Shown here: positions 13,909 to 47,483 of the stretch, piece after piece
Layout: each line of letters opens with the position of its first letter
Position numbering within the stretch: the stretch's first letter is position 1
DNA from: Dehalogenimonas lykanthroporepellens BL-DC-9
GTDB lineage: Bacteria > Chloroflexota > Dehalococcoidia > Dehalococcoidales > Dehalococcoidaceae
Reading direction: 5' to 3'
Assembly: GCA_000143165.1 (NCBI GenBank)
Contig: CP002084.1
Location: forward strand, 744,001 to 808,000
DNA: 64,000 nucleotides
The notes under the pieces: generated by a model
Database searches by the model: none
Told to the model about the DNA's origin: nothing
What the model saw: the letters and a program-made list of their open reading frames with translations, nothing else
Program-made: the position numbers and the translations under genes

Positions 13909-15614
13909 CAGGCACCATCCTGCTTTCCGATTATTTTGAAGGCGCCGACATCCACCAGTCCCAGGTCGGTCAGCTTCAGTTCGGGAATGACCGGCAAAGC
14001 CAGGAAAGACAGCGCGGCGAACGGCGCCTTCAGGCCGGTCCCGGTCCGGACAGCCGCCGCTTCCAGAAGTTCGAAATCAGCGACCACCTCTTCCAGCGGC
14101 CGGTCGGACATCAGCCCGGCTACCGGCAAAGCCAGAGAGGCCGTCACCCGACCGCCGGTCACCACCGCCAGGCCGCCGCCCATATCGGCCACCGCCTGAA
14201 CCGCGGCCGTCATATCGGCGTCACTCGCGCCCACGCAGATGATGTTATGAGAGTCATGCGCCACCGAAGACGCCAGGGCGCCCTCTTTCAGGCCGAAACC
14301 CTGTACCAGGCCGACGCCGATATTGCCGGTACCGTGATGCCTTTCCACTACTGCGATTTTGATTATGTCGCGTGCCAGGTCAGGCACCTGAGTGATGTTT
14401 TCCTTCAGATAACGGGTGACTATCTGGCCGGGTACCAGCCCGATGACCGGCGTTTCCGTGCTGGTATTTACCGCCAGGGCATCCTCGCCGAATGGTTTGA
14501 CCCGCATGCTCCGCCTCAGCGCCTCTGGAGCCGTGATTCCCGGCTCGAACAGCGCCCGCCGGTCACGGGCAACCAGCCGGCCTTCGAAATAAACTTCGCG
14601 GACAGCGAAGGATTCCAGATCGTCGACCACCGCCAGATTGGCCCGGTAGCCGGGAGCCACCGCTCCGGTCTGCTTCAGGCCGAAGTACAACGCCGGGTTG
14701 AGGGTGGCCAGCCGGACGGCGGTCACCGGGTCCATCCCCAGCCTGACCGCCTTGCGGACAATGGCGTCCATATCGCCGTCCCGTTGCAAGTCGGAACAGG
14801 AACGGTCGTCCACCACGAAGAAACACCGGTGTGCCGTCCGTTCGTTCACAAGTGGCAGAAGCTCTTCCAGGTTCTTTTCGGTGGAACCTTCTCTTATCAT
14901 TATGTGAAGTCCACGAGCCAGTTTTTCGCGGGCTTCAGCCAGACGCGTCGATTCATGGTCAGAGCCGATGCCGGCGGCGGCGTAAGCGTTCAAATCCCGT
15001 CCCGTCACTCCGGGGGCGTGACCGTCCTTCACCCGGCCGGCGGCGAAACTCAGCTTGGTCAGCACCTGCTCATCGCCGAAAAGCACCCCCGGAAAGTTCA
15101 TCATCTCGCCCAGGCCGATAACCCCTGACAGCGACAGCACCCGGGCCACCGCTCCGGCGTCCAGCCCCGCGCCGGAAGTCTCCAGGTGGGTCGCCGGTAC
15201 GCAGGACGGAGCCATGACGTTGACGTCCAGCGGCAGATCACGGGAGGCTTCGATAATATAAGAGATCCCCTCGATGCCGGTGACATTGGCCAGTTCGTGA
15301 AGGTCAGTTACGATGCCGGTCGTGCCGCGGGCGACCACCGCCCGGGCATATTGGCCGATATCCAGCATGGAACTCTCTATATGAGTATGGCCGTCAATGA
15401 ACCCGGGCAAAAGATACTTGCCCGCCAGGTTCACGGTTTCGGCGGCTTCGGTATAATCACCGACTCCGGCGATGACGCCGTCGCATATCGCCACCGCGGC
15501 TTCCTCTATTTCCCCATTGAAGACATTGACCACACGGGCGTTGGTTAGAAGCAGGTCGGCCGATTCCAACCCCCTGGCCACGCGGATTCGACGGCTTATT
15601 CTGGCACTATCCAT
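13908..15614 (-). CDS. ade: adenine deaminase
   Basis: This 568-aa amidohydrolase deaminates adenine to hypoxanthine, which the neighbouring hpt product can salvage. Family marks are the LLPGFIDGHTHIESSML metal motif, TDLHELANVTG, the C-terminal HHGTGNIGVGLVQGFGL and VAHDSHNIICVGASDADM blocks, and the EL.LTD..LVDV end. ATG 15614 (MDSARISRRI) fits the family N-terminus, although the frame is open upstream. It overlaps hpt by 8 nt and the following PRTase by 3 nt. Confidence 0.94.
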   Translation of the reverse strand: MDSARISRRIRVARGLESADLLLTNARVVNVFNGEIEEAAVAICDGVIAGVGDYTEAAETVNLAGKYLLPGFIDGHTHIESSMLDIGQYARAVVARGTTGIVTDLHELANVTGIEGISYIIEASRDLPLDVNVMAPSCVPATHLETSGAGLDAGAVARVLSLSGVIGLGEMMNFPGVLFGDEQVLTKLSFAAGRVKDGHAPGVTGRDLNAYAAAGIGSDHESTRLAEAREKLARGLHIMIREGSTEKNLEELLPLVNERTAHRCFFVVDDRSCSDLQRDGDMDAIVRKAVRLGMDPVTAVRLATLNPALYFGLKQTGAVAPGYRANLAVVDDLESFAVREVYFEGRLVARDRRALFEPGITAPEALRRSMRVKPFGEDALAVNTSTETPVIGLVPGQIVTRYLKENITQVPDLARDIIKIAVVERHHGTGNIGVGLVQGFGLKEGALASSVAHDSHNIICVGASDADMTAAVQAVADMGGGLAVVTGGRVTASLALPVAGLMSDRPLEEVVADFELLEAAAVRTGTGLKAPFAALSFLALPVIPELKLTDLGLVDVGAFKIIGKQDGA

Positions 15615-42321: not shown

Positions 42322-42757
42322 GATCATCGGAGTTTGCACCAGTTCCAAAAAAGGCACCAAAAAACGGGACATCGGCAGTGGTGTTCTCAAAGCCGACTTC
42401 GGCCTGAGCGGGGACGCTCATGCCCGGCAGGGCTGGCATCGCCAGATCAGTCTGCTGGACAATTCCAGTATCGACAAGATGCGGGCCAAGGGATTGACCC
42501 TTACGGCCGGCGATTTCGCCGAAAACCTGACCACCGAAGGTCTGGAATTGAAGACACTGCCCATCGGCTCGAGACTGCGCACCAGCCGCGGCGTCGAACT
42601 GGAAATCACCCAGATCGGTAAGGAGTGCCATCAACACTGTCAGATTTATCACCAGGTCGGCATGTGCGTCATGCCCCTGGAAGGCGTGTTCTCCCGCATC
42701 GTCACCGGCGGTGATGTGGTAGCCGGCGACGATATCGAAGTAATCAGCCAGGGCTAG
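42314..42757 (+). CDS. MOSC-domain protein
   Basis: This 147-aa protein is a stand-alone MOSC domain: [86 protein letters not shown]. The conserved Cys of the domain, used for sulfur transfer, is within GKECHQHC. With moaA and moaC upstream, a role in delivering or sulfurating molybdenum cofactor is likely (inference). It overlaps moaC by 8 nt and converges on GAPDH with a 4-nt overlap. Confidence 0.85.
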
Positions 42758-43893
42758 AACGGCTCTTCAGCGCCCTTGTAGCCTTCATCACGGTATTCGT
42801 CTCTCTCCGCTTTCAACGCCTCGCCGATGGCCGCGTGAACCGCCGCCTCGGGTATCGTCCTGGGCAGGAAACTCTTGACTACGCCAAGGGCGGCATCCGT
42901 TTTGGCCATCGAGCGCGCCGGATCTGTTTCGATGCCAGTCACGGCCCGGATGGCGTCGACGTTCTCCGGTATAGTCACCGCTTCGTTGTGAACCTGGAAA
43001 ACCAGGTAAGCTTCACGCTCATCCACCGCCAGCGCGTCTTCCCAGATACCTACTTCCCACATATCGTTTCGAGGCCGTCCCAAATCACGCATCAGTTCGA
43101 TGACCGAATTCATGGCCACCAGCCCGTCGGACGACCGGACAAAAGCCAGACGCGGCTCTTCCCACAGCGCATGGCGCAGTTCTGTCAGACTGACCGGGTT
43201 TTGTGTTTCCACCATGGCGTAGTGCATGTGGCTCAAGTTGAACGGCCCGGCACCGGCCATTGTGGTTATGTCCAGCCCGTTGATGACAGTTCGGGCATCA
43301 GGCCCCTGGTGTGAAGGCACCCTGGTTTCGGGAATAACGGTGTTGATCATGCCGTCACGGTGGCTTTCCCAGGGATCAGTGCCTCGGCGCAGTATCATCA
43401 CCCTGGCTCTTTTGACCCAGCCCCGTTTATTGAAGGCGTTCATCACCCGGCACAGAGCGGTTGTGTTGCAGGACACCACCCGGGCGAACTGCCGGTTCAG
43501 GGCTGTGGTGTAATTGACCTGAGCGACAAAGGACAACCCGGCGACTTCATGCTTTTCCGCGCCCTGGAAAATCACCTTAACACCGGCGGCCGAATACACC
43601 TCTTTCAAGCCGGCGCCTATACCTTTGGGCGTGCAATCGACAATCACATCCACCTTTTTCAACAGGTCATTCAAGCCGCCTTCAGCCGGTATTCCGGCTT
43701 CCTTGAGCATGGCCGTTTTTTCGGAAACCGCTCCGTACACCGGATAGCCACGTTCAACGGCCACCCGAACCCGGTAATCGGCATTGACCGCCGTGACCCC
43801 GGCAACTTCCATATCGTCCTGAAGGGCCACAGCATCAGCCACCCGTTTGCCGATGACACCGTACCCGTTGATGCCTACTCTGATTTTCGCCAT
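42754..43893 (-). CDS. gap: type II (archaeal-type) glyceraldehyde-3-phosphate dehydrogenase
   Basis: This 379-aa enzyme interconverts glyceraldehyde-3-phosphate and 1,3-bisphosphoglycerate. It is the archaeal class rather than the bacterial GapA type. It starts IRVGINGYGVIGKRVADAVALQDDMEVAGV, the catalytic Cys is in VSCNTTALCR, and HYAMVETQNPVSLTELRHAL and WEVGIWEDALAVDEREAYL are archaeal-type blocks. ATG 43893 (MAKIRV) has GGAG 10 nt upstream. Its presence fits gluconeogenic carbon flow together with PEP synthase (inference). Confidence 0.92.
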   Translation of the reverse strand: MAKIRVGINGYGVIGKRVADAVALQDDMEVAGVTAVNADYRVRVAVERGYPVYGAVSEKTAMLKEAGIPAEGGLNDLLKKVDVIVDCTPKGIGAGLKEVYSAAGVKVIFQGAEKHEVAGLSFVAQVNYTTALNRQFARVVSCNTTALCRVMNAFNKRGWVKRARVMILRRGTDPWESHRDGMINTVIPETRVPSHQGPDARTVINGLDITTMAGAGPFNLSHMHYAMVETQNPVSLTELRHALWEEPRLAFVRSSDGLVAMNSVIELMRDLGRPRNDMWEVGIWEDALAVDEREAYLVFQVHNEAVTIPENVDAIRAVTGIETDPARSMAKTDAALGVVKSFLPRTIPEAAVHAAIGEALKAERDEYRDEGYKGAEEPF

Positions 43894-43980
43894 AGCACAC
43901 AATCTCCGTAACCGTTTTTTCTAATATTGCTCCCCTTTAATTTATCCGATGAGGACCGACGATGCAAATGTTGTTTTCAG

Positions 43981-44021: not shown

Positions 44022-44094
44022 GGGCCGTTAGCTCAGTTGGTAGAGCACCTGACTTTTAATCAGGGTGTCACAGGTTCGAGACCTGTACGGCCTA
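44022..44094 (+). tRNA. tRNA-Lys (TTT), integration target of the island
   Basis: The cloverleaf is complete: D-arm GCTCAGTTGGTAGAGC, anticodon stem CCTGA/TCAGG with loop CTTTTAA (anticodon TTT), T-arm ACAGG TTCGAGA CCTGT. The acceptor GGGCCGT pairs with ACGGCCT but G1 faces U72, and no CCA is encoded, unlike the other six tRNAs here. Its last 42 nt are repeated at 46569-46611. Confidence 0.93.
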
Positions 44095-44095
44095 C
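44053..44095 (+). repeat. attL-like 43-bp direct repeat inside tRNA-Lys
   Basis: The sequence runs from CTTTTAATCAGGG in the anticodon loop to ACGGCCTAC just past the tRNA. It is identical over 43 nt to 46569-46611. The flanking bases differ, so the match limits are clear. Confidence 0.92.
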
Positions 44096-44182
44096 GTTCA
44101 ACCCCTTCCCCTTTTGCTAACCGTTTTCAAGCAATTCCTGTTTGGCAGGCCTCTCTTCTAATAAAGTATCGATGATATATTA

Positions 44183-45977: not shown

Positions 45978-46448
45978 ATGCGTGACGCCGAACTAGTCAG
46001 TCAACTTCAAAGTATCCAATCATTAATTAACAAATCTGGTATTGCAACCAACGACGATATTGAGATGCGCGGCCATTGGGCAAGATATCTTTGTGTTCTT
46101 TGTGCAGGACTATTGGAAAACGCTATCGGCTTGGTCTATCGGAAATATATTAATGATTCTTCAAATCCTAAGGTTGCTGATTTTTCCAATTCTGTTCTTT
46201 CGAAGATAACAAATCCGAATATGAAAAAATTTATTGAGGTTCATAAAATATTTGATATATTATGGGCTGAAGAATTAGAGGCATTTAGTGACGAAAATGG
46301 GGGTAAAGAGGCTATCGATGCAATTATGGCAAACCGTCACAGAATAGTTCATGGTAAATCATCAGATATTTCAATCGCTAGAATCGATGAATATCTAAAA
46401 AGGGCTATCAAAATTATCGAGTTTATGGAGAGCCAAATATATCACTAA
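45978..46448 (+). CDS. HEPN-domain protein (island gene 3)
   Basis: This 156-aa all-helical protein ends with the HEPN active site NRHRIVHG (R120-x4-H125) followed by DISIARIDEYLKRAIKIIEFM. This is the layout of HEPN proteins of the RiboL-PSP/MAE type, commonly RNases in abortive infection and toxin systems. The N-terminal half has an ENAIGLVYRKY helix. It starts 1 nt after the DUF262 stop, so they are translationally coupled and likely form one complex, with HEPN as RNase effector. It may instead be a non-catalytic partner. Confidence 0.8.
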   Translation: MRDAELVSQLQSIQSLINKSGIATNDDIEMRGHWARYLCVLCAGLLENAIGLVYRKYINDSSNPKVADFSNSVLSKITNPNMKKFIEVHKIFDILWAEELEAFSDENGGKEAIDAIMANRHRIVHGKSSDISIARIDEYLKRAIKIIEFMESQIYH

Positions 46449-46568
46449 CATTTTGCTAGCCAAATATTTGGGGAGACCCATTACCCAACGCAACGCCTTG
46501 ATGCTTTCCAATAGGAAATATAACCTCGTTGGTACTACTCAGCACGCTGTTTTACGTTTGTTTTGTAT

Positions 46569-46611
46569 CTTTTAATCAGGGTGTCACAGGTTCGAGACCT
46601 GTACGGCCTAC
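46569..46611 (+). repeat. attR-like 43-bp direct repeat (tRNA-Lys 3' fragment)
   Basis: An exact copy of the last part of tRNA-Lys (anticodon loop to 3' end) lies without the 5' half, so it cannot form a tRNA. It marks the right end of the island; host-like GC-rich sequence resumes shortly after. Confidence 0.92.
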
Positions 46612-46697: not shown

Positions 46698-47483
46698 ATG
46701 TCGGATATACTGCAAAATAAAAACTCATCAACCCGATTCCAGATACTGGTGGAGATAGCGGCCAAGGGGCCGGCGGTCGAGCAGAAAACCATCGCCACTC
46801 AACTTGAGATAACCCCCCAGGCGGTATCCGAGTACATCAAGCAACTCATGGCCGACAAACTGGTAACTTCGGAAGGCCGCTCCCGGTATCGCTTGACCTC
46901 CAACGGCGTCAACTGGATGCTCCACCAGTTGCGCGACCTCAATAATTATGTTGAACTGGCCGAACGCGCCGTGACCGATATCACCGTCAATGCCGCTCTG
47001 GCCCTGGACGATATCGCCGATGGCCAGGAAGTAGGCCTTTTAATGAAGGACGGCATTCTGGTAGCCGGCACCGGCATCGACACCGGAGCCAGGGGAATTG
47101 CCACCACCAGCGCCAGCCAAGGAGAAGACGTTGGCATTACCGGTATCCGGGGCATTGTCCCGCTGAGTCCCGGCACCGTTTTCGTGGCCGCTGTTCCAGG
47201 CATCCGAGAAGGTGGATCTTCCATGGCCGATATTGACCGGCTGATGCTGTTGGTCAGAAGCCAGCGGCATATCGCGGCTATAGGTATCGAGGCTTATGCC
47301 GCCTTAAAAAAAGCCGGCACCGCGCCCCACTATTTTTACGCGGTTACCGAAACCATCATAGAAGCGGCTCGCTATGGGCTGGAAGTGGTGGTGGTTACCG
47401 TGACCGAAGAACTGCCGGATCTCATCAAGGCTTTGAGTGAAGCCGGTATTGAGCCTCATTTCATCGACCTTCGTCCGGATTAA
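46698..47483 (+). CDS. winged-helix transcriptional regulator, archaeal-like
   Basis: The 261-aa protein starts with a winged helix-turn-helix (about 10-75: STRFQILVEIAAKGPAVEQKTIATQLEITPQAVSEYIKQLMADKLV). The remaining 180 residues form a ligand-binding-like domain with Gly-rich strands (GLLMKDGILVAGTGIDTGARGIATT, ITGIRGIVPLSPGTVFVAAVP). The combination resembles regulators better known from methanogens. No effector can be named. AGAGG precedes the ATG. It lies just right of the island repeat and so probably belonged next to tRNA-Lys before insertion. Confidence 0.72.
   Translation: MSDILQNKNSSTRFQILVEIAAKGPAVEQKTIATQLEITPQAVSEYIKQLMADKLVTSEGRSRYRLTSNGVNWMLHQLRDLNNYVELAERAVTDITVNAALALDDIADGQEVGLLMKDGILVAGTGIDTGARGIATTSASQGEDVGITGIRGIVPLSPGTVFVAAVPGIREGGSSMADIDRLMLLVRSQRHIAAIGIEAYAALKKAGTAPHYFYAVTETIIEAARYGLEVVVVTVTEELPDLIKALSEAGIEPHFIDLRPD

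Follow-up and report, generated by a model that had tools for sequence, protein, structure and literature searches.

The window examined here is a 64-kb stretch of the Dehalogenimonas lykanthroporepellens BL-DC-9 genome, which consists of a single contig of 1,686,510 bp. ARAGORN identified an intact tRNA-Lys(TTT) gene (tRNA-Lys(UUU)) with its anticodon at gene position 34, which places position 44053 at the start of the 7-nt anticodon loop (CTTTTAA). Exact sequence comparison showed that the 43 bp from this base to the end of the tRNA gene are repeated downstream in direct orientation without a mismatch, and that the bases flanking the two copies differ on either side (A/T and G/A). By our own estimate, the number of perfect 43-bp direct repeats expected by chance in 64 kb is about 1e-17, so a chance origin was dismissed. 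When up to three mismatches were allowed, a 27-base stretch of the repeat was found at only two sites in the whole genome. The original prediction described a mismatch-free repeat beginning in the anticodon loop of tRNA-Lys, and both points hold. The two copies enclose 2,473 bases (the 2.5-kb island) with a GC content of 38%, compared with about 56% in the flanks. The only genes found inside are three open genes running in one direction, which encode transmembrane-HNH, DUF262/GmrSD_N and RiboL-PSP-type HEPN proteins (Table 1); as had been noted from the sequence beforehand, there is no integrase among them.

Table 1. Features of the tRNA-Lys island and its flanks, with positions in the window.
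Feature	Position	Strand	Description
GAPDH-like host flank gene (glyceraldehyde-3-phosphate dehydrogenase)	42754..43902	-	86% aa identity to the gene in the same place beside tRNA-Lys in G001
Intact tRNA-Lys(UUU)	44022..44095	+	ARAGORN; 5′ half host, 3′ half island-supplied; 74/74 identical to G001 tRNA-Lys
Core repeat, attL	44053..44095	+	Starts with the anticodon loop and extends to the tRNA 3′ end
Left arm	44096..44126	+	31/31 identical to left end of the G006 element; TTTGCTAAC at 44113-44121, second repeat degenerate
Transmembrane-HNH gene, 169 aa	44308..44817	+	Closest homologue in the order (50% aa identity) lies inside the G010 tRNA-Lys element
DUF262/GmrSD_N (ParB-like NTPase) protein, 365 aa	44879..45976	+	Pfam PF03235, 1.1e-27; IDGQQR motif intact
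RiboL-PSP-type HEPN protein, 156 aa	45978..46448	+	Pfam PF18735, 5.4e-15; Rx4H (RHRIVH) intact
Right arm	46445..46568	+	CTAACATTTTGCTAGC motif 124 bp before the core, terminating in TTTTGTAT; first motif overlaps the HEPN stop codon
Core repeat, attR	46569..46611	+	Displaced original tRNA-Lys 3′ part; downstream flank aligns to the G001 empty-site flank
MarR-like HTH + DUF7839 host flank gene	46698..47483	+	Follows tRNA-Lys in relatives; 60-77% identity in six genomes of the genus

The original prediction looked to close relatives for an empty tRNA-Lys site with a single copy of the repeat, and G001, a sister species of the same genus, provides one. A GAPDH-like gene, tRNA-Lys and a MarR-like gene (77% aa identity to that of the window) follow each other there in the same order with nothing inserted between them, and the island is thus not fixed in the relatives. 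When the window flanks were joined at the repeat they aligned to G001 as a single block, and the occupied window gave two aligned blocks that overlap on the repeat. This indicates that the right copy is what was originally the 3′ part of the gene, now displaced, and that the left copy was brought in by the island, in agreement with the earlier suggestion that the island restored the 3′ half of an intact left tRNA. The MarR-like gene is also found closely 3′ of tRNA-Lys in G002, G003, G004 and G007, all of the same genus. Many genomes of the order carry solitary tRNA-Lys 3′ fragments that start at or near the anticodon loop, and in at least 10 of these genomes tyrosine integrase genes directly adjoin tRNA-Lys. 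Larger elements with an integrase gene, which the original prediction had also proposed looking for, occupy this tRNA-Lys in two further genomes of the genus and in many of the order. The tRNA-Lys gene is a hot spot for integration in this order.

The tRNA-Lys(UUU) gene itself varies within the genus. In four of its genomes, G003, G004, G005 and G006 (L107, L108, L105 and L104, respectively), the 5′ half of the gene is nearly unchanged and the 3′ half is different (GGTTGTGCTGGGTTCGAGCCCCAGGCGGCTCAC), which is accompanied by a compensating change in the acceptor stem. These altered halves may reflect past replacement of the 3′ half by islands.

The tyrosine integrases adjacent to tRNA-Lys fall into two types, A and B, that can be distinguished by their domains and in a tree. 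Type B integrases are about 320-400 aa and codirectional with the tRNA; in G005, a 42-bp repeat closes a 38-kb island with such an integrase at tRNA-Lys. G010 has three identical copies of a type B integrase (L042:16857-17816, L045:5445-6404 and L044:2087-3046), which lie far apart, each behind either tRNA-Lys or a 3′ fragment of it, in keeping with the repeated tRNA-Lys island reported from Dehalococcoides strain 195. Type A integrases are about 400-435 aa, convergent with the tRNA, and combine PF14657 (Arm-DNA-bind_4, arm-binding), PF14659 (SAM_3) and PF00589 (Phage_integrase). They are carried by G006 (same genus), G010 (same family), G021 and G144, and form a fully supported clade with one additional tRNA-Lys(CUU)-type member; the integrases of this clade adjoin tRNA-Lys genes. 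The type A ORF runs antisense through the tRNA-Lys att site in G006 (L104:4508-5782) and G021 (L046:1911-3185), and its last ~25 residues are therefore encoded by the att site and could differ between the integrated and excised states. Right ends like those of type A elements (TGTATCTTTTAATCAGGGTGTC) also occur at L112:485-506 in G030 and L118:9457-9478 in G058, joined to non-tRNA DNA. The sequence after these ends is the same in both genomes and resembles the 3′ end of a dapA-type gene, which is possibly a second attachment site.

The type A element of G006 is intact, 3.8 kb long and located at the orthologous tRNA-Lys between perfect 44-bp repeats, with the same MarR-like gene following. It encodes the type A integrase (Int), a 73-aa HTH_17 protein whose placement is excisionase-like (Xis-like), a 340-aa HUH-type Rep (REP_ORF2-G2P), a LuxR/GerE protein and two small ORFs. 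The type A element of G010 is 7.4 kb long and comes second in a tandem array located behind tRNA-Lys. Int, HTH_17, Rep and LuxR genes are present as in G006, and after them come a membrane-HNH gene, a 183-aa ORF, a TetR gene, a reductive dehalogenase gene (PF13486, 5e-61) and a 90-aa ORF in rdhB-like position. Between the window island and this element there are three collinear homologous blocks, namely the left arm, the HNH gene and the right arm. The idea that the autonomous type A element is a virus was rejected, as its Rep has no match among viral contigs.

The ends of the window island resemble those of both elements. Beyond the left arm, which is identical to that of G006 at every base, the ungapped identity across the right arm is 77/124 to the G006 element and 69/124 to the G010 element, compared with a shuffle mean of 32-33 (for G006, a mean of 32 and a maximum of 53 in 20,000 shuffles). 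The motif CTAACATTTTGCTARC lies at exactly equal distance from the core in the window, G006 and G010. Type A elements have two direct copies of the nonamer TTTGCTAAC at their left end, spaced 11 bp apart, as expected of putative arm-type integrase sites. In a scan of 393 genomes of the class for the composite right end, defined as the right motif followed by 85-115 bases and then the start of the core, only three genomes had it: the window genome, G006 and G010, the latter two of which encode the integrase. These ends also bear on whether the island could be an assembly artefact or contaminant, a concern given that the public BL-DC-9 record was suppressed over a contamination warning (PMC13390414). 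Both flanks are syntenic with the sister species, however, and the island ends match elements of the same genus and the same family at this very tRNA, and we regard an artefact as very improbable.

In G026, a 134-bp stretch with left-arm and right-arm-like sequence is duplicated (99%) at L041:2083-2240 and 14903-15035. The duplicates bound a 13-kb island at tRNA-Lys. No integrase was seen in it, but the sequence has four assembly gaps, and G026 is at most a candidate for a second integrase-less case.

Within the window island, the HEPN gene begins after a gap of 1 nt from the DUF262 gene, and based on their domains the two probably form an anti-phage operon. Using PADLOC, the DUF262 protein matched NsnA (6.4e-64) better than PD-T4-2_A (9.8e-52), and the HEPN protein gave no PADLOC match to PD-T4-2_B at E-values up to 1, with only the general PF18735 HEPN family fitting; for this reason we term the pair PD-T4-2-like and not PD-T4-2. 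It is like PD-T4-2 of E. coli (PMC9519451, PMC10952713) in being a two-gene DUF262 and PF18735 HEPN system whose DUF262 protein matches PD-T4-2_A, and unlike it in the two PADLOC results above and in the membrane HNH gene that precedes the pair. A GmrSD type IV restriction system would call for DUF1524, to which none of the three island proteins has a match, the island HNH being a separate protein of another family. Nor does the island contain a packaging-hijack or helper-induced gene, as would be expected of phage satellites (PICI, P4-like and similar). In the PDB, the HEPN protein weakly matched a TALE construct (26 residues), a hit that we regard as spurious.

Pairs of DUF262 and HEPN genes are also carried by plasmids of Kocuria and of Hymenobacter, in the latter next to an HNH gene, and in E. 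coli DUF262 is found beside an unannotated 180-aa partner. A scan of genome contigs found no identical cargo elsewhere. Relatives of the DUF262 protein in the order are 28-43% identical, and the att context is absent in the four that were looked at. Among 156 genomes of the order the best HNH homologue is the gene in the G010 element. Other HNH homologues exist as lone genes outside such elements, which makes this gene a weaker marker, and it was rejected as a strict marker of the element family.

Since the island ends match those of integrase-encoding elements at the same tRNA gene in relatives, the island can be read as a stripped-down, integrase-less member of their family. The three blocks collinear with G010 together with the HNH homology make a family element lacking int-xis-rep-luxR the simplest account. 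CIMEs are defined as elements that have lost their integration and transfer genes and kept attL and attR (PMC5704250), and both properties are found here: the perfect 43-bp repeats and the ends common to the G006 and G010 elements correspond to attL and attR of a recognised family, and integration and transfer genes of its own are absent, the HNH, DUF262 and HEPN genes being all that the island holds. The att repeats, the empty site, the restored tRNA, the integrase-encoding element at the orthologous tRNA-Lys, and the ends and HNH gene held in common can all be read directly from the sequences. We are confident, though short of certain, that the two 43-bp copies arose as attL and attR when DNA integrated site-specifically into tRNA-Lys(UUU), and that the island is a CIME from the type A tRNA-Lys element family that kept its att ends and lost int-xis-rep-luxR. 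No full-length parent with the same cargo plus an integrase was found among the genomes searched, and so we infer the former existence of one, from which the recombination and replication module would have been lost by deletion.

In this reading, a type A integrase (PF14657 + PF14659 + PF00589) would have exchanged strands within the anticodon loop, and integration would have swapped the tRNA 3′ half for an identical copy and pushed the original 3′ half to its present place at the right end. Deletion of the int-xis-rep-luxR module would then have retained both att ends, the HNH gene and the DUF262 and HEPN cargo. The island could in principle be mobilized in trans, with the Int and Xis of an incoming type A element excising it; alternatively, a type A element integrating adjacent to it could mobilize it in cis. 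The window genome itself has no type A integrase. It does have three tyrosine recombinases, which could point to a host XerC/XerD-like enzyme mobilizing the island, but these have the Xer layout without an arm-binding domain and sit elsewhere in the tree, distant from the tRNA-Lys integrases, and the core is a tRNA anticodon loop and not a dif-like site. Host Xer recombinases were rejected as the driver by domain layout and tree, and their involvement is extremely improbable.

Two further explanations are sub-cases of the CIME origin, and their probabilities overlap with the one we give to it. It is possible that an autonomous element lost its integrase in place and left a dead relic that is no longer excisable, with genes that persist either by chance or because they are of use in defence. 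Of the four expected arm motifs, only the one at 44113 is perfect. The motif at 46452 differs by a single mismatch, the left end no longer has its second repeat, and the first right repeat is altered at its overlap with the HEPN stop codon. The alteration of three of the four motifs is compatible with a decayed, immobile relic. The helper integrase is absent from the genome, and CIMEs arising by decay have been described (PMC5704250). On the other hand, the two core repeats match perfectly, none of the three reading frames is interrupted, their catalytic motifs are intact, and the spacing of the right arm is exactly preserved, and we see the relic as a serious possibility that falls somewhat below an even chance.

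The other sub-case is a true satellite that arrived without an integrase, depended for its insertion in trans on an integrase-encoding element in the same cell, and belongs to an integrase-less travelling lineage. The retention of both ends alone out of the recombination module is in line with this, as is the way the cargo reaches the right arm, with its stop codon overlapping the first motif. However, a second integrase-less copy with the same ends was not found in 393 genomes of the class, and a satellite in this strict sense is unlikely. The original prediction proposed a satellite moved by the recombinase of another element; this idea is supported, since both of the checks proposed with it had a positive outcome and the ends match one integrase type specifically, but we favour a deletion derivative, that is a CIME, over a long-standing satellite. 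In a wider version, integrase-less mini-elements, this island among them, would form a lineage that exploits the tRNA-Lys-specific Int/Rep elements of the Dehalococcoidales and exchanges defence and dehalogenase operons via shared att ends; this strikes us as improbable. If true, genes for immunity and for organohalide respiration would be spread by the same borrowed recombinase.

With the island taken as a probable CIME, a single tRNA-Lys element family in organohalide-respiring Chloroflexi has a reductive dehalogenase as cargo in one genome and, in another, a probable defence operon. The island provides a concrete case of an integrase-less element whose likely helper integrase is identified through a sister genome. 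A 2019 paper reportedly dealt with extrachromosomal rdh circles in Dehalococcoides.

CIME-type islands are already known, and the window island adds another member. Like the CIMEs and CIME-ICE/IME accretions described previously (PMC5704250), it keeps its att ends at a tRNA gene where related elements encode integrases. Unlike them, it is known from sequence alone, its autonomous relatives carry Rep and not a known conjugation module, and its cargo is a probable defence operon. Closer at hand, ssrA-specific islands of Dehalococcoides without an integration module exist beside integrase-bearing ones and have been proposed as CIMEs (PMC3146451). These integrase-less islands come from the same bacterial family, but theirs is a serine recombinase at the tmRNA gene with rdhA cargo, whereas the window island belongs to a tyrosine-integrase family at tRNA-Lys and has probable defence cargo. 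tRNA-Lys was already known as an island site in Dehalococcoides strain 195 (PMC2764846), and the repeated island there shares both the site and a tyrosine integrase beside the tRNA. Its integrase is of type B, however, and the relative of the window island is the neighbouring type A element of G010, with its 7.4 kb and rdhA. To this the present analysis adds a likely helper family, the match between the ends, and the presence of dehalogenase and probable defence cargo within one element family.
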